DNA from: Ktedonobacterales bacterium
GTDB lineage: Bacteria; Chloroflexota; Ktedonobacteria; Ktedonobacterales; DATBGS01
Length of the DNA: 36,319 bases
Assembly (NCBI GenBank): GCA_036557285.1
Contig: DATBHW010000001.1
Location: 1-36,319 of the forward strand
Direction of reading: 5' to 3'
Shown here: positions 1 to 36,319 of the stretch, one piece after another
How the letters are laid out: each line of letters begins with the position of its first letter
Numbering within the stretch: the stretch's first letter is position 1
Translations under genes and position numbers: made by a program
The notes under the pieces: generated by a model
Database searches by the model: none
Told to the model about the DNA's origin: nothing
What the model saw: only the letters and a program-made list of their open reading frames with translations

Positions 1-280
1 CTCCCCTTTCCTGCCGACAAGCGGCGGAGAAAATGGAACGACCACATCGGGGAACCCTGGCCCGGAGAGGCCGCAGGGTTCACAGATATGGTCGCTGGGG
101 GGTCTGGCGGAGGGTCTCAATGGTACAATACTCCCCAGCCCTATATCTGGACAAGCCGGATGTGGGGTCATGGCAGGGCCGACGTTTTTGGCGTCGGCTA
201 TGCCAGCCGTTCTTCAGATGGTTTTTGATAGCTGGGTGTGAGCTACCCTCCAGAACAAAATGTATCCAACCAACGGGTAT
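1..280 (-). ncRNA. Structured leader RNA of the repeat element, 5' part
   Basis: The minus-strand transcript expected from the promoter at 287-316 would start near base 280. It would run through several hairpins to the window edge and continue, if the ends join, to the small ORF start at 36172, about 286 nt in all. The hairpin 178-184/192-198 (GCCGACG/CGTCGGC) has a counterpart at 22215-22222/22228-22235 where paired bases differ but pairing is kept. I do not recognise a known riboswitch or sRNA family. Confidence 0.6.
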
Positions 281-12587: not shown

Positions 12588-13826
12588 CTAGAAGCTGACA
12601 GGGAGGGCGGTCAGGCCGCGCAGGCCGAGATTGTCGCGCCACTTGAGCGGCGGTGGGTCCAGGCTAAGATTGGGCATGCGGCGCAGCACGGTCTCGAAGG
12701 CCACCTGCCCTTCAATGCGCGCCAGGGGTGCGCCGAAGCAGAAGTGGCTGGCCCAGGCAAAGGCCAGATGGCGGTTATCTTGTCGGCCCAGATCGAGGCG
12801 GTCAGGGTCAGGGAAGCGCTCCGGGTCGCGGTTGCCTGCGGCCATGACGGCAATCACTGCCTGGCGTTTGCGGATGAGCTTACCGCCCAGTTCCACGTCA
12901 TCCGGGGCCAGGCGAGCGGTTTGCTGGCTAGGGCTTTCGTAGCGCAGCAGTTCTTCGACGGCTGAAGGGATGAGGGAGAAGTCGGCCTTGAGGCGCTCTA
13001 GCTGGTCGGGATGGCGCAGCAGAGTCAGGATGCCATTGCCAATGAGGTTGGTGGTAGTTTCCTGGCCGCCGACCATAGTGACGATGGTGTTGGCGACGAT
13101 CTCGTCGTCGGTGAGCCGATCACCGTCCACTTCAGCTTCGATGAGCGCACTGATGAGGCCGTCGCGCGGGTGTGCGCGGTGTTCCTGGACAGCGGCCTGG
13201 AAATAGGCGGTCATTTCATCAACGGTGCGCAGCACCTGGGGAACGCGGTCAGGATTGTGCTGGAAGTTGCCCAGCACCTGGGCGAAGTCGCCGGACCAGG
13301 CGGTCAACTGTCGCCAGTCGGAAGTTGGCACGCCGAGCAGTTCGGCGGTGACGATGGCTGGCAGGGGGTAGCCGAGATCGGCGATAACATCCATGTGTCC
13401 GGTGGTCTGGATGTCGTCCAGCAGGCGGTTGGTGATGTCCTGAATGTGCCCACGCAAGATTTCGACGCGCCGGGGCGTGAAGGCTTTGGAGGCTAGCCCA
13501 CGCACGCGGCCATGCGCGGGTGGGTCCAGAAAGAGCATCTGGCGCACCATGAGCTGCGCCAGGGGCCGTAACGCTCCCAGGCCCATCGCTTCTAGCTGTT
13601 CGGGTGTAGGCGTGCGGTTGGCGGAGAAGTGCTGGAAGACCCAGATGATGTCGGCGTAGCGGGTCACGACCCAGGCGTGCAGAAAGGGATCCCAATGTAC
13701 GGGGTCTTCGCTGCGCAGCCGGTGGAACAGAGGATAGGGATTCGCCAGCACCTCCGGGTCGAGCAGGTGGTAGAGACTTAACGGTTTGTTCTGTGTATTT
13801 GTTGATGCTGCTGTAGCTTTGTTCAT
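12588..13826 (-). CDS. Cytochrome P450
   Basis: The 412-aa soluble bacterial P450 has the I-helix motif VGGQETTT (252-259), ExxR in EELLRYESP (E292, R295) and the heme-binding loop FAWASHFCFG with thiolate C363. In that loop the two usual glycines are alanines. ATG 13826 is chosen because GGGAGG lies 7 nt upstream; the open frame extends seven codons further. It starts 32 nt after the stop of the adenylation-PCP gene. By analogy with NovH/NovI-type pairs it probably hydroxylates the amino acid while it is bound to the PCP. That partnership is inference. No ferredoxin gene is nearby. Confidence 0.92.
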   Translation of the reverse strand: MNKATAASTNTQNKPLSLYHLLDPEVLANPYPLFHRLRSEDPVHWDPFLHAWVVTRYADIIWVFQHFSANRTPTPEQLEAMGLGALRPLAQLMVRQMLFLDPPAHGRVRGLASKAFTPRRVEILRGHIQDITNRLLDDIQTTGHMDVIADLGYPLPAIVTAELLGVPTSDWRQLTAWSGDFAQVLGNFQHNPDRVPQVLRTVDEMTAYFQAAVQEHRAHPRDGLISALIEAEVDGDRLTDDEIVANTIVTMVGGQETTTNLIGNGILTLLRHPDQLERLKADFSLIPSAVEELLRYESPSQQTARLAPDDVELGGKLIRKRQAVIAVMAAGNRDPERFPDPDRLDLGRQDNRHLAFAWASHFCFGAPLARIEGQVAFETVLRRMPNLSLDPPPLKWRDNLGLRGLTALPVSF

Positions 13827-13858
13827 TGTTCTGCCTCCCGGCGCCATGTACCCCGGCG

Positions 13859-15775
13859 TTACTGGTGGTTCTGTCCTTGCGCCAGCAAATGCTGCGCTTC
13901 ATCTTCGCTCATCGCTTCGAGTTTGGTGACAAGCTGCTGCTGGATTTCGGTGGATAGCATGCGGACGGTGGGCGCTTCGAAGAGAGTGCGCAGCGCCAGT
14001 TCCACGCCGAAGGTTTCGCCGATAAGGGTCACAAGCTGGATGCCCAGCATCGAATGCCCGCCAAGCATGAAGAAGTTTTCATCCATGCCTACCTTATCAA
14101 TGTGCAGTAAGTTGGATACCATCTCCGCTATCAGCGCCTCTACCGGCGTGTCGGGTTCTTCGCTGATTTCTTCTCGCAGGGTGTTGGTGTGGTCAGGGGC
14201 AGGCAGGGCAGCCCGGTCCACTTTGCCGTTGGCGGTGACGGGCAGCGCGTCCAGGCGCACGAAGACGGCTGGGACCATATAGTCGGGCAGGCTCGCCAGC
14301 AGGTGTTCTTGAAGGATGCCCGGGGTGATGGCTGCTTCAGGGTCTATGACGATGTAGGCTACAAGGCGCTTCTCGTCGGGCGGGTCTTCGCGGGCGACGA
14401 CGATGTTGGCCTGGATGGCAGGATGCTGGTTCAGGGCAGCGACGATCTCACCCGGCTCGATGCGATAGCCGCGCAGTTTGATCTGGTCGTCGGAGCGGCC
14501 CAGGAAGGCGAGTTGCCCATCAGGGAGATAGCGGGCAAGGTCGCCGGTTTTGTAGAGGCGAGCGCCGGGTTCTGCGCTGAATGGGTGGGAGATGAAGCGT
14601 TCGGCGGTGAGTTCGGGGCGGTTGAGGTAGCCGCGCGCCAGGCCAGCGCCGCCGATGTAGAGTTCCCCTGCTTCGCCGATGGGTACAGGCTGCAATTGTT
14701 CATCAAGCAGGTAAAGCTGGGTATTGGCAATAGGTCGTCCAAGCGAGGGCGGCTGGTTCGGATAGCCTGCTGGAGGCACCTGCCCGGAGGTGGTGACGAC
14801 GGTGTATTCGGTTGGGCCGTAGTTGTTGATAAAGGCGAAGGGCAAGCTGGAAGGCGGATAATGTTGCAGCCTGTCGCCGCCGGTGAGCATGTAGCGCAGA
14901 GAGGTTTGGGCAGGCCAGGCCAGGGCCAACATCTGCTCGGCAAGCGGGGTAGGCAGGAAGGTATGGGTGATGTTGTGCGCGAGCAGCCAGTCGCGGAGGG
15001 CGGCGGGCGCGACTCGTGTTTCGGTATCGGGCAGATGGATGCTGGCCCCGGCAGTGAGGTAGGGCCAGAGTTCCCAGCCAGTGGCGTCGAAGGCGGGGCT
15101 GGCAACCTGAGTGGCCCGGCTGGCGGCAGTGACATCGAAGGCGCGCTGATGCCAGAAGATGAGGTTGAGCAGGCTCGCGTGGGAAATCTGTACGCCTTTG
15201 GGCTGGCCGGTTGAGCCAGAGGTGTAGATGACATACACGAGATCGTCGGCGGTGATGGCGCAGGCAGGCTCGGTATCGGGCTGCTGGTCCAGCAGGTCGG
15301 CGTCAGCATCCAGGCAGAGGAGCTGAGCAGCCGGGACGGCCAGGCGCGGCAGGAGATGTTGTTGAGTCAGCAAGACGGGAGGCCGGGCGTCTTCGAGGAG
15401 GAAGGCCAGACGATCAGCGGGATAGGTGGGGTCTGTAGCGACGTAAGCGCCGCCAGCTTTGAGGATACCCAGCCAGGCGACAACGAGATCAATAGAGCGT
15501 TCCAGGCAGGCGGCGACGAGCGTATTGGGGCCGACGCCGCGTTTTTGGAGGAGGTGTGCAAGCTGGTTGGCTCGCTGGTTCAGCGCGCGATAAGTGAGGG
15601 TTTGCGCGCCGCTCACCACCGCTACGGCTTCTGGATTGGCAGCCGCCTGGGCAGCGACTAATTGTGGGACACAGGTATCCTGTGGGAAAGGCTGGTCTGT
15701 AGTGTTCCAGGCGCTTAACTGCTCGCGCTCTGGCTCGGTGAGTGACGCTGTTGCCTGCCCTATTTCAACGCTCAT
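13859..15775 (-). CDS. NRPS-like adenylation-PCP didomain protein, predicted Leu-activating
   Basis: The 638-aa product has an adenylation domain (about 35-525) with YTSGSTGQPKG (184-194), FDATGWE (229-235), NYGPTE (318-323), YKTGDLARY and GKVDR (K518). A carrier domain follows with LGGHSM (S575, phosphopantetheine site). There is no condensation, thioesterase or reductase domain. Reading the ten specificity positions against PheA by eye gives D230 A231 W234 F273 L297 G299 N318 V326 V327 K518, that is DAWFLGNVVK, a published leucine code. It probably loads leucine as a thioester for the downstream P450. AGAGG lies 8 nt before ATG 15775. No MbtH-like gene is in the window. Confidence 0.9.
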   Translation of the reverse strand: MSVEIGQATASLTEPEREQLSAWNTTDQPFPQDTCVPQLVAAQAAANPEAVAVVSGAQTLTYRALNQRANQLAHLLQKRGVGPNTLVAACLERSIDLVVAWLGILKAGGAYVATDPTYPADRLAFLLEDARPPVLLTQQHLLPRLAVPAAQLLCLDADADLLDQQPDTEPACAITADDLVYVIYTSGSTGQPKGVQISHASLLNLIFWHQRAFDVTAASRATQVASPAFDATGWELWPYLTAGASIHLPDTETRVAPAALRDWLLAHNITHTFLPTPLAEQMLALAWPAQTSLRYMLTGGDRLQHYPPSSLPFAFINNYGPTEYTVVTTSGQVPPAGYPNQPPSLGRPIANTQLYLLDEQLQPVPIGEAGELYIGGAGLARGYLNRPELTAERFISHPFSAEPGARLYKTGDLARYLPDGQLAFLGRSDDQIKLRGYRIEPGEIVAALNQHPAIQANIVVAREDPPDEKRLVAYIVIDPEAAITPGILQEHLLASLPDYMVPAVFVRLDALPVTANGKVDRAALPAPDHTNTLREEISEEPDTPVEALIAEMVSNLLHIDKVGMDENFFMLGGHSMLGIQLVTLIGETFGVELALRTLFEAPTVRMLSTEIQQQLVTKLEAMSEDEAQHLLAQGQNHQ

Positions 15776-18060: not shown

Positions 18061-18203
18061 GCGTTCGCGTGTAAGGGCGGCGTGTGTGGTGGCGCGGCGG
18101 CTGGCCGCCTGGAAGGCGGCGCTACAAGTGGCGTTCGCGTGTAAGGGCGGTGTTCGCGCAGGCGCAGCGATTCGCCGCCAGGGACGGCGCTACAAGTGGC
18201 GGT
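18061..18203. repeat. Two tandem REP-like repeat units
   Basis: GCGTTCGCGTGTAAGGGCGG occurs at 18061-18080 and again at 18131-18150. Each unit continues into a GCCGCC...GGCG palindrome and the tail GCGCTACAAGTGGC. The unit length is about 70 bp. The central bases differ (TGGAA in one, AGGGA in the other), the same two variants seen elsewhere in the window. Confidence 0.75.
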
Positions 18204-18840: not shown

Positions 18841-19011
18841 ATGAACAACGATGCCAAACTGAAACGCACGACCATCTATATCTCACCGGAACTTCAAGCA
18901 GCCTTACGCGCCTTGAGCAAGGCCCATAAGCGCTCCTTTACCGGCGAAGTGTTGTGGGCCTTAGAGCAGTATGTACAGGCCCACCAGAAGGGACCAGCGC
19001 GTGCCGAGTAG
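18841..19011 (+). CDS. Ribbon-helix-helix DNA-binding protein linked to tnpB
   Basis: The 56-aa product has the RHH layout: a beta strand with alternating residues (KRTTIYIS, residues 8-15), helix 1 (PELQAALRALSKAHK) and helix 2 (SFTGEVLWALEQYVQAHQK). It is too short for most gene finders. Its stop codon lies 8 bases beyond the GTG start of tnpB, giving an 11-bp overlap, so tnpB translation is probably coupled to it. It should bind the palindrome over its own promoter and so control TnpB levels. A role in DNA binding at the element ends is an alternative. Confidence 0.8.
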   Translation: MNNDAKLKRTTIYISPELQAALRALSKAHKRSFTGEVLWALEQYVQAHQKGPARAE

Positions 19012-20176
19012 GAAGACATACAAATACCGTATCTCCCCAACGGCCAGGCAGGAACAAACCTTGCTCTTTTACCTGCGACGCTGCCGTGACCTGTACAACG
19101 CGGGGCTGGAAGAGCGTAAAGCCTACTACCAGATGTGCCGTACCCAGCTTGCTTGTTACACGCAAATCAACGAGTTGCCCGATCTGAAGCGTACCTATCC
19201 GGCCTATCAAGACCTGCCCTCGCACGTCTTGCAGGATGTCTTGCGGCGGCTGGACAAAGCGTTTGCCGCCTTCTTCCGGCGCATCAGGAATGGCGAGACG
19301 CCCGGCTATCCGCGCTTCAAGAGCACTAGTCGCTACCATTCGTTCACCTATCCTGATGCAGCGGGTTGGAAACTGCAAGGGGACCGGCTGAAACTGGCGG
19401 GCGTCGGTGAGGTGAAAGTCAAGGTGCATCGGGAGATGCAGGGTACAATCAAAACTGTCACCATCCGGCGCGACATTGAGCAGTGGTACGTGACGTTCTC
19501 CTGTGAGGCGCCAGAAGAAGCGCCCTTGCCGCCCACTGCTGCTGCCGTTGGCTTGGATTTAGGCGTGCTGCATTTTGCTACCCTGTCTACTGGCGAGCAT
19601 ATCGAGAACCCGCGACATTACCGCAAGCGGCTCAAGCGTATCAAACTTCTCTCGCAAATCAAGGACCACCGCAAAAAAGGCAGTCATCGCAGAAAACGAG
19701 CGGCTATCGCCCTGGCAAAGGCGCATCGCAAGGTCCGTAACCAACGGCAGAACTTCCACCAGCAGCTTTCCCGCCGCCTGGTAAACGAGTACGGGCTGTT
19801 GGCGATGGAAGACCTGCATATCCTCTCTATGACTGCCGCGCCTGAGCCGAAACCAGACCCGGAACACGAGGGGCAATATCTGCCCAACGGCGCAGCGGCC
19901 AAGGCAGGCTTAAACCAATCGATTTTAGATGCTGGCTGGGGCCAGTTCCAATCCCTCTGCATCGTCAAGGCTGAGAGGGCCGGGCGGCGCGTGGTGTTGG
20001 TAGACCCCAAATATACCAGCCAGCTTTGCAGCGGCTGTGGCGCTGTCGTCAAGAAGGAGCTTTCCGAACGCTGGCATGCGTGCGCATGCGGCGTAGAGCT
20101 AGACCGGGACCACAACGCGGCACTCAACATGTTGTTCCGGGGCCAGGAAGTGGCCCACGATGCTACGGCGTCGTAG
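19001..20176 (+). CDS. tnpB: TnpB RNA-guided nuclease
   Basis: The 391-aa product from GTG 19001 has N-terminal tyrosine- and lysine-rich sequence (KTYKYRISPT) as in most TnpBs. An ATG at 18971 in frame would add ten unrelated residues. RuvC residues are intact: D186 in GLDLG, E270 in LLAMEDL, and D368/D370 in LDRDHNAALN. The zinc finger is C343-x2-C346 and C361-x-C363. TnpB proteins use a right-end RNA to cut sites next to a TAM, which keeps the element in place after TnpA excision. Length and motifs suggest an active nuclease rather than a dead derivative. Confidence 0.92.
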   Translation: MPSRKTYKYRISPTARQEQTLLFYLRRCRDLYNAGLEERKAYYQMCRTQLACYTQINELPDLKRTYPAYQDLPSHVLQDVLRRLDKAFAAFFRRIRNGETPGYPRFKSTSRYHSFTYPDAAGWKLQGDRLKLAGVGEVKVKVHREMQGTIKTVTIRRDIEQWYVTFSCEAPEEAPLPPTAAAVGLDLGVLHFATLSTGEHIENPRHYRKRLKRIKLLSQIKDHRKKGSHRRKRAAIALAKAHRKVRNQRQNFHQQLSRRLVNEYGLLAMEDLHILSMTAAPEPKPDPEHEGQYLPNGAAAKAGLNQSILDAGWGQFQSLCIVKAERAGRRVVLVDPKYTSQLCSGCGAVVKKELSERWHACACGVELDRDHNAALNMLFRGQEVAHDATAS

Positions 20177-21784: not shown

Positions 21785-22030
21785 TTATACTACCCGCTTG
21801 AAAGAAGCGGGCAATTTTAGCGAACCGCCAGCCTGCTGCTGGCGGTTCGCTGACCAGATCTTGGCGGGGAACTCGCGCCGCGCTGAGGCAGCAGGCGTAG
21901 CGCGTGCCTTCTGCCGGGCGAAGAGCGCGGGCGGGATGCGGAAGGGATAGCGTTTTTCCAGCCAGGCTTTGGCCGGGAACATGCGCGGCGGAAGGTTGTA
22001 CCAGGGGATAGATGCGTGAGACGAGACCAT
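21785..22030 (-). CDS. Conserved small protein of the repeat element (copy B)
   Basis: The 81-aa product begins MVSSHASIPWYNLPPR and is preceded by GGGGAG about 6 nt upstream. It aligns along its length with the copy at 35966-36172. The first 31 residues are nearly identical, differences there include several synonymous third-base changes, and further on a one-codon indel keeps the frame. Conserved features are WYNLPPR, FPAKAWLE, RYPFR, ATPAA and EFPAK. The tail after QQQ differs and covers a hairpin (21823-21850), so the true end may vary between copies. It is basic, with no signal peptide or membrane helix. I do not recognise the family. Confidence 0.6.
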   Translation of the reverse strand: MVSSHASIPWYNLPPRMFPAKAWLEKRYPFRIPPALFARQKARATPAASARREFPAKIWSANRQQQAGGSLKLPASFKRVV

Positions 22031-22318
22031 GAGAGCCTCCCCTTTCTTGCCGTTGTGCGGCGGAGAAAATGGAACGACCACATCGGGGAACCCTGGCCCG
22101 GAGAGGCCGCAGGGTTCACAGATATGGTCGCTGGGGGGTCTGGCTAGGGGGTCTCGATGATACAATAGTCCCCAGCCCCATATCTGGTTGTGCCGAATGT
22201 GGGGTCATGGCAGGGCCGGTGATTTGTTCGCCGGCTGTGCCAGCCGTTCTTCAGATGTTGCAGTATGCTGGGTGTGAGCTACCCTCCAGAGTGAAATGTG
22301 GGGCAAGCGAACGGGTAC
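22031..22318 (-). ncRNA. Structured leader RNA of the repeat element (copy B)
   Basis: About 288 nt separate the predicted start point from the small ORF. The RNA can form a nested stem (22075-22080/22125-22130 enclosing 22089-22095/22110-22116) and a second hairpin (22215-22222/22228-22235). In that hairpin one A-T pair of the other copy is replaced by G-C, and a C-G pair by a T-G wobble. Covariation plus conserved single strands suggest a regulatory leader or an independent RNA. No known family was recognised. Confidence 0.6.
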
Positions 22319-22324
22319 GCTGAG

Positions 22325-22353
22325 ATTGTACCTTGCTTGTGTCTATTTGTCAA
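22325..22353 (-). promoter_or_regulatory. Sigma70-type promoter of repeat element copy B
   Basis: The minus strand reads TTGACA (22348-22353), 17 nt, TACAAT (22325-22330). The boxes are conserved with the other copy while the spacer is not, which supports a functional promoter. Confidence 0.75.
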
Positions 22354-22381
22354 GCATTTTTGCGCAAAGGAGCTAAGGGAC

Positions 22382-28119: not shown

Positions 28120-31100
28120 TTAGCCGACAGAGCCTTCCATCTCAAGCTGGATGAGGCGGTTGAGTTCGACGGCATACTCCATCGGGAGTTCCTTGGTGAT
28201 CGGCTCGATGAAGCCGTTGACGATCATCGAGTAGGCTTCGTTCTCGGAAAGGCCCCGGCTCATCAGGTAGAAAAGTTGCTCTTCGCCGACCTTGGAGACA
28301 GTAGCCTCGTGGCCGATTTCGACCTGGCTGTTTTCCAGGCGCATCGTCGGGTAGGTATCGGTGCGGGCCTCTTCGTCCAGCAGCAGGGCGTCGCAGCGCA
28401 CATTCGACTTGGAATGATGCGCGTTGGGGTTCACGCGGACAAGGCCGCGATAGGACGCCCGCCCCGTTCCCTTCGAGATGGACTTGGAGAGAATCTGCGA
28501 AGAGGTGTGCGGGGCCAGGTGCGTGACCTTCGCGCCCGCGTCCTGGTGCATGCCGTTGCCCGCGAAGGCGACGGAGAGGACTTCGCCGCGCGCGCCCGGC
28601 TCCATGAGCAAGACGGCAGGATACTTCATAGTCACCTTGGAGTTGTGGACAATGAAGCCTTGCGAGATGAAGTTGCCTGTGCCTTCGACCTCAATGTCCC
28701 AGGTGGGGACTTCGAGGGCCATTGGCTCGGAGACATCCACATCCATGATTTCGACGCTCTCAGGCAGTTCGATAGATGACCGGCCAACCTGGCGATTCAT
28801 CTGAAGCGTCGGCGCTTCCTGCTGCGCCTGCAAGCGCAGGGTTGCGCTTACATGCTGGCAAAGCCGGGGGTCGGCTGCAAAGACGAGGCGATAGGAGCCG
28901 TGCGCCATGCAGGTGACGCCCAGAATCTCGACCTGCCGGGGTTCAGCGAACTCGGTGTGCAGACGCGAGGTGATGCCCAACGTCACCAGCAGCGAGGCGA
29001 TGTCTTGCAGCAGTTCGCGGTTAGCCGACTTCAGGCTGAAGCGCCCACGAACGACGCAGCCGTCAGCATCAAGATAGCCCGCGATGAAGGCCAGCCGCTG
29101 CGATTCTGGCAGGGACCAGACCCACTGAGGGACGCGCTTGGTACGAGCGCTGCCAGTGAAGCCGTTGATCGTGAAGAACTCGGCCAGTTCTTTGTTGTTC
29201 CAGGCGAGATGCTGCCCATCGGCGCGCTGGGTGGGCGGGGCGTCTACTAGGGCTGTCATCGTTTCGACCAGCCGCCCACGCGCGCGATCAGCGGCGGGGG
29301 TGGAGAAGCCAACTTTGGCGTAGCGCACAACGCCTGCTGTTTGGGCAGGAGCCAGTTCAATGTTGCCGTCGCCGACCCAATAGCCGAAGAGCCACATCAG
29401 AGCCTCGGTTGTCTCTTGCGCCTGCGCCATACGAGAGGCCCGCGCGCGGGTCATCGTCAGCGCTGAAGCGTATTGGTTTTCGGAAGCGAACGTGGTCACG
29501 AGTTCGGGTACGCGCAGCCGATAGGGCGCGCCATAGTCAATGGAGGTGCGCGGGATGATCACCTCTTTGAGGTGATCGGCGCGCACATAGGCCAGGTGAT
29601 AGCGGCCCAACTTCTTTGCCGCTTCGGCGTCGTAGAGATACGAGAAGAAGGGGTGGTTCGCGGTGACGCGCAGCTTACGCTCGCCGACTGAGACGGTCTG
29701 CACAGGCTGGTAGCCAGAGAAGCGCTTGCCCTTGACAGCGCGGAAGCACAACTGCCCCGCCTGCTCGTCGTAGGACAGCACCTTCTCGCCAACTTCGAGG
29801 CGCTCGATGGGCTTGACGCCTTCAGGCGTCGTGACAGTTGAGCCTTCTGCCAGGCAGCCAAGATTGCCGTCCACCCATTCCATTGTCGCGTCGGCATAAG
29901 CCGCAGCGCGCTTGGTGACGAGGTTGTAAACGTTCTTCGACCAATTCTGGATGGTGGTATAGCGCACCCGCGCGCCCTTCTGAACGATGATTTCGACGAC
30001 GGCGCTGTGCAGGCTGTCGGAGGCGTAGGTAGGCGCCGTGCAGTTGTGCGAGACAACTCCCTCAGCCACATACGATTCATCCTCCTCAACCGAGAAGTTA
30101 TAGACCGTCGTGTCCATCTCCTCGATTTCGATAGCGCGAATCGGCATATAGAGGTACTTCTCGTCCAGGTAGAAGGGCGAGCCGCTTTGAGAGCCGTTTG
30201 GCGCGGGCTGCCCAACGATTTGACCAAACCGCTCGTTCCAGGGTGACGAGATGACGACCGCATAGATAGCCTGGCGAGGCACTTCGCGTTCCTGCCGATT
30301 CACTGATGCAGCCACACCCAGACGCAGCAGGGCGTCACGGAAGTTATGAGCCAGGTCTGGAGAAATGGTATTGTAGCGGAACATATTTTTCCGCTCGTCA
30401 TAGCTGCCATCTCCACACCAAGCGCCGCGCACCCATTCAGTCAGGTGCTTGAGGGGGGCGTTGCGGATGAAATCTGGCACACGCTTCTCATAAACGTCTG
30501 CTCCGAAGGTACGAGCAAACGCCCGCGCTGCCTCCGTTGAACAGACTACCAGCGTCTGTCCATTCTGGCGTGGTTTATTCTCGATAGGAAGCTTGCCGAA
30601 ATAGCGCTCGATCAGCGCGCGGGTATCTTCTAGGAAGACACGCTCATCCACATGGAATGAGAAAGAGAGGTAATGCTCATTATCAACATGCCCCTCGGCA
30701 TGGTAATAGCCCACCAGGCGGAAGAAATCTGGCTCCAGTGGGAGCCTGACCTCTTTAGCGACAGGCTCATGTCGGCCCCGGCCAATGGGAATAGTGAGAG
30801 AGTGATCGGTTTCGGTCAGCTTCTCTGGCTGGGGTACAGGTACGACGAGGTAATCACCTGGCTTCAGCAGCGAAACCGGTGCCCACTCTGGGGTAAAGGT
30901 TTCGTTGTGGTTACGCGCATACTTGCGCCGGGCGACAAGCAGGGGATGCTCTTCAGTGATATGCAGCGTTGTGTTATCGCCAAAGAAGCGCACATGATAG
31001 ATCATGCCCTGATAGGGGCGTGACATGGTGTGATAGACCTTGCGATAGCGCCCGTTGTGGGTCAGAACTGTATCGCCTTCTTGAATCTCTTCAATCGCCT

Positions 31101-31836
31101 TCGTGCCATCAGCGGTGCGCACAGACGCGCCCGCCAGGAAGCAGCCCTCGACATAATGCACATACGAGCCGGGGGCGGCGATAATCAGCGTGCGCTCGAA
31201 CTGGCCCATGTTCTGCGCGTTGATGCGGAAGTACGCTTGCAGCGGAATCTCTACCCGCACGCCTTCAGGTACGTAGACGAAGCTGCCGCCGCTCCAGACC
31301 GCGCTGTTGAGGGCCGCAAACTTGTTGTCGGTGTAGGGGATGATGGTCCCGAAGTACTGCTTCACGATGTCGGGATGCTCGCGCAGGGCGGTATCCATGT
31401 CGGTGAAGATGACACCCAGCTTCTCCAGGTCTTCGCGCACCTTATGATAGACGGCTTCGCTTTCGTACTGGGCGGTGACACCCGCGAGGAACTTGCGCTC
31501 GGCTTCCGGGATGCCCAGGCGATCAAAAGTCTCTTTGATCTCGGTGGGGACTTCTTCCCAGGTCTTGCCCTGAGCCTGCATCGGCTTGATGTAGTAGTAG
31601 ATGTCGTCGAAGTTGATCTCGGAAAGATCGGCGCCCCAGGTGGGCATAGGCCGCTTGAGGAAATGGTCCAGGCTCTTCAGGCGGAACTGGCGCATCCAGG
31701 CAGGCTCACCCTTCATCTCGGAGATTTGCTCGACAACCTGCTGGTCTAGCCCCTTCCGGGACTTGAAGACATAGTTTTCTGGCATAGAAAAGCCAGCGGC
31801 GTAACGCTCAAGTTCCGTTGTGACCAATTCAGACAT
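28120..31836 (-). CDS. sufB: SufB Fe-S cluster scaffold protein with two inteins
   Basis: The 1238-aa precursor splits into SufB exteins 1-231, 599-660 and 1066-1238, which join to a normal 466-aa SufB, with inteins at 232-598 and 661-1065. SufB with SufC and SufD builds and transfers iron-sulfur clusters in the cytoplasm. The extein sequence is highly conserved ([38 protein letters not shown]) with no breaks, so the gene should be functional after splicing. ATG 31836 has AAGGAG 9 nt upstream; an open extension of 17 codons lacks homology. No sufC, sufD or sufS is in the window, so sufB is separated from its usual operon partners here. Confidence 0.95.
28642..29856 (-). other. SufB intein 2 (405 aa) with LAGLIDADG-type endonuclease
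   Basis: It begins at Cys661 ([20 protein letters not shown]) and ends FIVHN before Ser1066, so the second nucleophile is Ser rather than Cys. Block B is VTANHPFFS. Dodecapeptides [11 protein letters not shown] and [11 protein letters not shown] keep both aspartates, which suggests an intact homing endonuclease. It interrupts SufB after WVDGNLG, 62 extein residues beyond the first intein. Sequence outside splicing motifs is unlike intein 1, so the two were gained separately. Confidence 0.93.
30043..31143 (-). other. SufB intein 1 (367 aa) with LAGLIDADG-type endonuclease
   Basis: It begins at Cys232 ([20 protein letters not shown], block A) and ends VVSHN before Cys599, giving a standard Cys...His-Asn/Cys splice site. 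Block B is ITEEHPLLV (a TxxH-like HPL). Two dodecapeptide motifs, [11 protein letters not shown] and [12 protein letters not shown], each keep an acidic residue, so the homing endonuclease may be active. It interrupts SufB after HYVEG. Confidence 0.93.
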
Positions 31837-31996
31837 AGAAGGTTGCTCCTTATTCCTGGTAATGCCGCCAATGAGCAGCAGCGGCACTGGTTAAATCTGA
31901 TGGTTTTAGTCGGATTTCATTGTGATTATATGACTTTCGCGCCTCCCTGTCAAGGGTGGCATCGGCGTATTCCCGTTCCCCCAGGGTCAGGCTTGC

Positions 31997-35824: not shown

Positions 35825-35938
35825 ACCTGTAGCGCCGCCTTCCAGGCGGCTCAACGTTGGCCTGCGAATACGTGGCCCGTGAGGGCAGCCGTTCGCGCTG
35901 GCGAGCGGTTGGCCGCCAGGGACGGCGGCGCTACAGGC
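35825..35938. repeat. REP-like repeats flanking the terminal repeat element
   Basis: The palindrome at 35825-35851 is identical over 27 bases to 380-406, with similarity continuing to about 35890. A second palindrome, GGCCGCCAGGGACGGCGGCGCTACAG without the last bases of the tail, covers 35911-35936. The region 35655-35965 holds no gene. Confidence 0.75.
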
Positions 35939-35965: not shown

Positions 35966-36172
35966 TCAGTGGGGCTGCTGCTGCTCAGCCAGCCAGCGTT
36001 TGGCCGGGAACTCGCACCGCCCTGACGCGGCAGCAGGCGTGGCGCGCCCCCTGGGCTGGATGAAGAACGCGGGCGAGACCCGAAACGGATAGCGGTTTTC
36101 CAGCCAGGCTTTGGCCGGAAACGCGCGCGGCGGAAGGTTGTACCAAGGGATAGATGCGTGAGACGAGACCAT
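35966..36172 (-). CDS. Conserved small protein of the repeat element (copy C)
   Basis: The 68-aa product begins MVSSHASIPWYNLPPR with GGGGAG about 6 nt upstream, as in the copy at 21785-22030. Compared with that copy, the first 31 codons differ by five synonymous changes and two amino-acid replacements (M17A, K26N). Beyond that RATPAA and EFPAK are kept and one codon is gained without a frame change. It stops soon after QQQ, whereas the other copy runs 14 residues further. No signal peptide, membrane helix or known domain is seen. Confidence 0.6.
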   Translation of the reverse strand: MVSSHASIPWYNLPPRAFPAKAWLENRYPFRVSPAFFIQPRGRATPAAASGRCEFPAKRWLAEQQQPH

Positions 36173-36319
36173 GAGAGACTCCCCTTTCCTGCCGACAAGC
36201 GGCGGAGAAAATGGAACGACCACATCGGGGAACCCTGGCCCGGAGAGGCCGCAGGGTTCACAGATATGGTCGCTGGGGGGTCTGGCGGAGGGTCTCAATG
36301 GTACAATACTCCCCAGCCC
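36173..36319 (-). ncRNA. Structured leader RNA of the repeat element, 3' part (copy C)
   Basis: This is the ORF-proximal part of the leader, ending just before ATG 36172. Its last 141 bases repeat window bases 1-141 exactly, so the upstream part and promoter of this copy are those at 142-316 if the ends are joined. The total leader length would then be about 286 nt, against about 288 nt in copy B. Confidence 0.6.
36179..36319. repeat. 141-bp terminal direct repeat
   Basis: It is identical to 1-141. The length equals the largest default k-mer of a common short-read metagenome assembler (MEGAHIT), which reports circular paths with an overlap of exactly one k-mer. It marks circular closure or a graph loop through a repeat. 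Confidence 0.9.

Follow-up and report, generated by a model that had tools for sequence, protein, structure and literature searches.

A repeated, putatively bistable leader RNA family in a Ktedonobacterales genome

The cassette at 21785-22364 and the contig ends

A stretch of 36,319 nucleotides (the window) was analysed. It makes up the whole of contig C1 in a 5.1 Mb draft genome of a Ktedonobacterales bacterium (G000, 82 contigs). Between positions 21785 and 22364 of the window, the minus strand carries a sigma-70-type promoter, a leader of ~288 nt, a Shine-Dalgarno sequence and a small open reading frame (ORF), all as the original prediction had described them. The -35 box (TTGACA, 22348-22353) and the -10 box (TACAAT, 22325-22330) matched the consensus at 11 of 12 positions, and two promoter-like sites were found, versus 0.3 in shuffled sequences. 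The cassette has the following parts, given with the evidence for each.

22325-22353 (-): sigma-70-type promoter, TTGACA - 17 nt - TACAAT; sequence, and the promoter type of the whole family
22205-22245 (-): P1 hairpin, variable in sequence and conserved in pairing; 12 of 14 pairs changed on both sides among 32 copies, replicated in 18 relatives
22188-22204 (-): strand A, CCCCACATTCGGCACAA, which pairs with B in one state and is degenerate in the window subfamily; A:B pairing conserved, not covarying
22173-22187 (-): strand B, CCAGATATGGGGCTG, partner of either A or C; B:C coevolution (0/5000 permutations), seen again in relatives
22130-22177 (-): P3 hairpin, which contains the best-conserved motif, ATTGTATCATCGAGA (at 22152-22166; ATTNTAYCA in the family consensus); conserved across the phylum-wide set
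22119-22133 (-): strand C, CAGCGACCATATCTG, complementary to B and D alike; pairing tests and folds
22088-22117 (-): inner hairpin of the C:D arm, GAACCCTG..CAGGGTTC; sequence and folds
22073-22085 (-): strand D, CGATGTGGTCGTT, which closes the terminator-like C:D stem, with a short T run in this copy; C:D coevolution
22043-22069 (-): predicted P5 hairpin immediately 5' of the Shine-Dalgarno sequence; sequence in the full-length window-type copies
22037-22042 (-): Shine-Dalgarno sequence GGGGAG; sequence
21785-22030 (-): ORF of 81 aa, MVSSHASIPWYNLPPR..., from the ATG at 22030 to the stop at 21785, of no known family; dN/dS 0.27-0.6 in five full-length copies

Halves of further copies lie at the two ends of the contig.

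80-220 (-): leader core of the contig-start copy, an upstream half with its promoter at 287-316; covariance-model match, E 2.9e-25
36261-36319 (-): partial leader of the contig-end copy, a downstream half; sequence
35966-36172 (-): 68-aa ORF belonging to the contig-end copy; sequence

A second complete copy had been proposed by joining 35966-36319 to 1-328. The end-joined copy and the one at 21785-22364 are 80-88% identical, far beyond chance, but the joining itself could not be established. Positions 36179-36319 are the same 141 bases as positions 1-141, and this 141-mer also terminates contigs C2 and C76. There are thus two upstream and two downstream halves, and either pairing between them is possible. 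These end sequences make an assembly break within the repeat a likelier explanation than a circle. The length of the shared end, 141 bases, would fit a k-mer-sized assembly overlap.

A TnpB-like protein (18971-20176, plus strand, 401 aa) with OrfB_IS605 and Cas12f1-like domains is encoded in the same region as the 21785-22364 copy. Short GC-rich interspersed repeats of the TGTAGCGCCGCCTTCCAGGCGGC type were seen at 380-451, 18061-18182 and 35825-35938 of the window, and also flank many leader cassettes elsewhere in the genome.

Leader family and downstream proteins

A DNA search retrieved 11 similar stretches in G000 and none in 100 relatives. Two similar stretches had the same leader in front of different genes, one for a methyltransferase and one for an unknown protein, so the leader was modelled alone. 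Covariance models (R1 and the broader R2) then gave ~36 leaders in this genome, where two copies had originally been counted. Most of them follow one plan: a sigma-70 promoter, a leader of ~200-290 nt with conserved hairpins, a Shine-Dalgarno sequence and one solitary ORF, with a single leader per gene. The typical promoter is TTGACA - 16 to 18 nt - TATACT. At least 11 of the 12 promoter positions were matched in 22 of 31 leaders. Among random stretches, a few of them overlapping leaders, the figure was 13 of 620.

The genes past the cassette ORF are different and unrelated from copy to copy. Homology between close copies ends roughly at the promoter and at the end of the ORF. The duplicating unit is promoter, leader and ORF together. 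A separate observation is a CCAAANGTCC or CCAACACCTCATGT motif upstream of the promoter, shared by 10 of 32 units (for example L045, L047, L054, L056 and L057), where 0.4 would be expected.

Searches against Rfam 15 gave no gathering-level match over the window, and permissive thresholds returned only weak, chance-like matches to unrelated families. By this lack of a match, the leaders appear to form an uncatalogued RNA family, outside all Rfam families. The original prediction had recognised neither the RNA nor the peptide, and the peptide likewise matched no Pfam family.

The proposals of a sensor peptide or a toxin-like protein found no support. The leader is not bound to the window peptide, since several unrelated protein families, a methyltransferase included, are preceded by it. 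The only names returned by protein library searches were P22_AR_N (with ORF6C in L124), HTH_17 and methyltransferase. One group of 17 ORFs (146-188 aa) could be aligned together and was called the A4 family. A profile search found 22 A4 members in G000, of which 20 have a leader directly upstream; contig ends truncate the remaining two, so that all 20 testable members carry the leader. When 300 further genomes from the phylum were searched in the same way, no A4 member was detected. The A4 profile matched neither the first ORFs of the Chloroflexales loci described below nor P22_AR_N proteins, and no relatives were found in Pfam, PHROGs, NCBIfam, PADLOC or the PDB. The predicted A4 structure is all-helical (mean pLDDT 81), with no structural match by PDB sequence or Foldseek searches.

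Pairwise dN/dS was 0.18-0.39 for most A4 pairs and 0.63-0.86 in one subgroup. The window-type ORFs (68-81 aa) differ by synonymous changes and whole-codon indels, as had been noted from two copies, with dN/dS of 0.27-0.6 in the five full-length ones. The original view was supported in that the RNA is structured, under selection and of a regulatory type, and that the small protein it precedes is real.

Alternative pairings in the leader

Over 32 copies, P1, A:B and P3 together had 84% paired cells and 15 pairs changed on both sides. The covariation score was 0.274, versus 0.153 in shuffled data (0/500) and at most 0.129 in slid controls; in the 18 relatives it was 0.421 versus 0.176 (0/500). 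Conserved stems with a compensatory change, first reported for two copies, therefore hold by covariance over the 32, and the earlier reading of constraint rather than recent duplication was supported as a constraint on structure. A:B is conserved but covaries little, and it is weak in the window subfamily.

Both of the pairings open to strand C have coevolved. For B:C and for C:D, pairing within a locus was better than after swaps between loci (0/5000 permutations each), and C:D reached -27.5 kcal/mol with its own partner versus -22.7 kcal/mol with those of other loci. One C:D test took D as the best downstream complement; the result still holds in an unbiased version of that test. In the relatives, B paired with the following strand also beat swaps (0/5000).

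Predicted folds changed with leader length. In leaders cut before D, B:C was dominant in most folds, with a mean of 8.7 pairs. When D was included, most folds contained C:D and A:B, with 11.5 and 6.5 pairs, respectively; exceptions include L045, L057 and L070b. This order, B:C before D and then A:B with C:D, follows the logic of an attenuator or of a riboswitch expression platform, and the leaders hold two mutually exclusive, evolutionarily maintained helices, one of the features by which attenuators are recognised. At the level of sequence comparison, the anatomy of the leader, its conserved pairing, the coevolution of both pairings and the presence of a single leader per gene can be taken as demonstrated.

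In G000, only short T runs (TTT/TTC) follow the C:D stem, and that of the window copy was not called by a terminator scan; control might thus act at translation or processing instead. Some relatives have T-richer tails after the stem.

The layout resembles that of known attenuators (trp-type leaders, T-box and riboswitch platforms, with 1:2/3:4 versus 2:3 pairing), which likewise have four strands with exclusive pairings, a promoter upstream, a Shine-Dalgarno sequence and gene downstream, and a terminator-like last stem. In contrast to those systems, no metabolic gene follows here, many copies in one genome stand before unknown proteins, and the context is one of mobile elements.

Relatives, proposed switch and competing explanations

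Model R1 found no relatives within the class of G000. With the broader R2 (8 candidates scored per genome), the RNA was detected in at least 6 of 399 other Chloroflexota genomes, and R2 also found it in two further genomes of the class of genome G263. Two more carriers, Kouleothrix aurantiaca and a Chloroflexales MAG, came from a pattern scan of named genomes, which also identified Oscillochloris sp. ZM17-4 and Chloroflexales ZM16-3. Only 5 of the 26 pattern matches in named genomes, all of them in Chloroflexota, had a strong model score, and viral contigs, phages and plasmids gave no credible match.

In Oscillochloris, ZM16-3, Kouleothrix and MAG.66, the leader sits after a small HTH_17-type gene; the Pfam match is that of the Oscillochloris protein, to which the other three are similar by eye. 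Tyrosine recombinases, a D5-type primase, DnaB, ParA and a P22_AR_N/ORF6C antirepressor are encoded near various of the related loci. Judged by this gene content, the surroundings of the relatives are a mobile-element setting. A mobile element without its own enzyme had been among the original suggestions. Duplication of the unit and the surroundings of its relatives agree with it. On the other hand, neither end sequences nor target duplications nor a dedicated enzyme came to light.

Taken together, the data point, with fair probability, to leaders of a new family that act in cis as bistable, attenuator-like regulators. The family would probably derive from mobile elements and have been amplified as promoter-leader-ORF cassettes. 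Transcription from the constitutive-looking sigma-70 promoter would produce a leader with P1, A:B, P3 and strand C. C would pair with B during transcription. Once transcribed, D would capture C in a GC-rich, terminator-like stem, and B would go back to A. Expression of the downstream gene would then be set by whether C stays with B or with D, a principle known from classical attenuators and riboswitches; C:D would terminate or block expression and B:C would permit it. P1 and the P3 motif ATTNTAYCA are the likely site where a bound protein or ligand may bias the choice. The family may have begun as a control element of early or antirepressor-type operons in integrative elements of Chloroflexota, and later have been amplified in the G000 lineage.

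It is conceivable, if rather doubtful, that the leaders are a new signal-responsive RNA class of Chloroflexota mobile elements. The ATTNTAYCA hairpin would then sense a molecule, a protein or the state of the element, and the ~36 units would act as a genome-wide regulon driving a lineage-specific protein family.

The main functional rival is a role like that of C4, the phage-immunity antisense RNA of P1 and P7, where the leader, processed into a stable RNA, would act in trans on homologous leaders and restrain a small ORF and an antirepressor. Phage P1 has a leader RNA, the small gene icd and an antirepressor gene (PMC8201110). This layout is partly shared here, in a phage-like context: at least three leader copies precede P22_AR_N antirepressor-like proteins, one of them exceeding the Pfam cutoff (L064 is a fourth, judged by DNA similarity), and others precede small ORFs. 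B and D are moreover near-copies, which would let the C strand of one RNA pair with a different RNA. We nevertheless consider this role unlikely. The preference of C for its own D rather than the D of another locus speaks for action in cis, and most leader copies lack an antirepressor, their genes being mostly solitary. The leaders, from another phylum, also share no sequence or covariance-model similarity with Rfam C4 (RF01695).

Another explanation that we regard as improbable makes the leader an RNA partner of the encoded protein, through autoregulation by binding, a ribonucleoprotein, or an RNA-antitoxin/protein pair. The one-to-one association of leader and A4, the confident helical domain predicted for the proteins and the hypervariable sequences of both P1 and the proteins would fit such a partnership. 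Against it speak the same type of leader preceding unrelated proteins, the methyltransferase among them, and one ORF that has swapped leaders: the ORFs of L047 and L048 are 93% identical while their leaders cannot be aligned by blastn. We read this as a natural leader exchange, and since the ORF is shared without the leader, the two are exchangeable. The proteins also have no known RNA-binding fold. Type III toxin-antitoxin systems (ToxIN-like) have a similar order of promoter, structured RNA, stem and a protein of 150-190 aa, but the leader RNA here is not a tandem repeat array as type III antitoxins are, the protein model is all-helical and the protein libraries gave no match. HEARO/IscB omega RNAs are likewise structured, of similar length, directly 5' of an ORF and dispersed in many copies; in contrast to them, the leaders of G000 have no Rfam match, are not followed by an IscB-like/HNH ORF and belong to a unit with its own promoter.

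It is very unlikely that these dispersed, solitary units, with homology bounded between close copies roughly by promoter and ORF end and with mobile-element genes as neighbours in other species, are remnants of non-autonomous mobile elements whose leader was kept by descent and has no current regulatory role, since the helices are upheld by paired changes across large divergence, both alternative pairings are kept and ORF dN/dS is mostly well below 1.

The attenuator-like family would add a strongly pairing-supported, uncatalogued RNA to a phylum with few described RNAs, and one tied to integrative elements and antirepressor-type genes. It would also be an unusual case of one leader copied ~36 times in a single genome with every copy retaining its own switch. 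As divergent copies have private B, C and D sequences, the switching model can be tested by mutation and compensation.

Two further loci were noted in the window. SufB (28120-31887, minus strand, 1255 aa) apparently contains two inteins: Pfam placed the SufBD core in two stretches, with intein splicing/Hint and LAGLIDADG homing-endonuclease domains. At 12588-15775 (minus strand), a cytochrome P450 beside an adenylation/carrier-protein enzyme forms a small biosynthetic pair.
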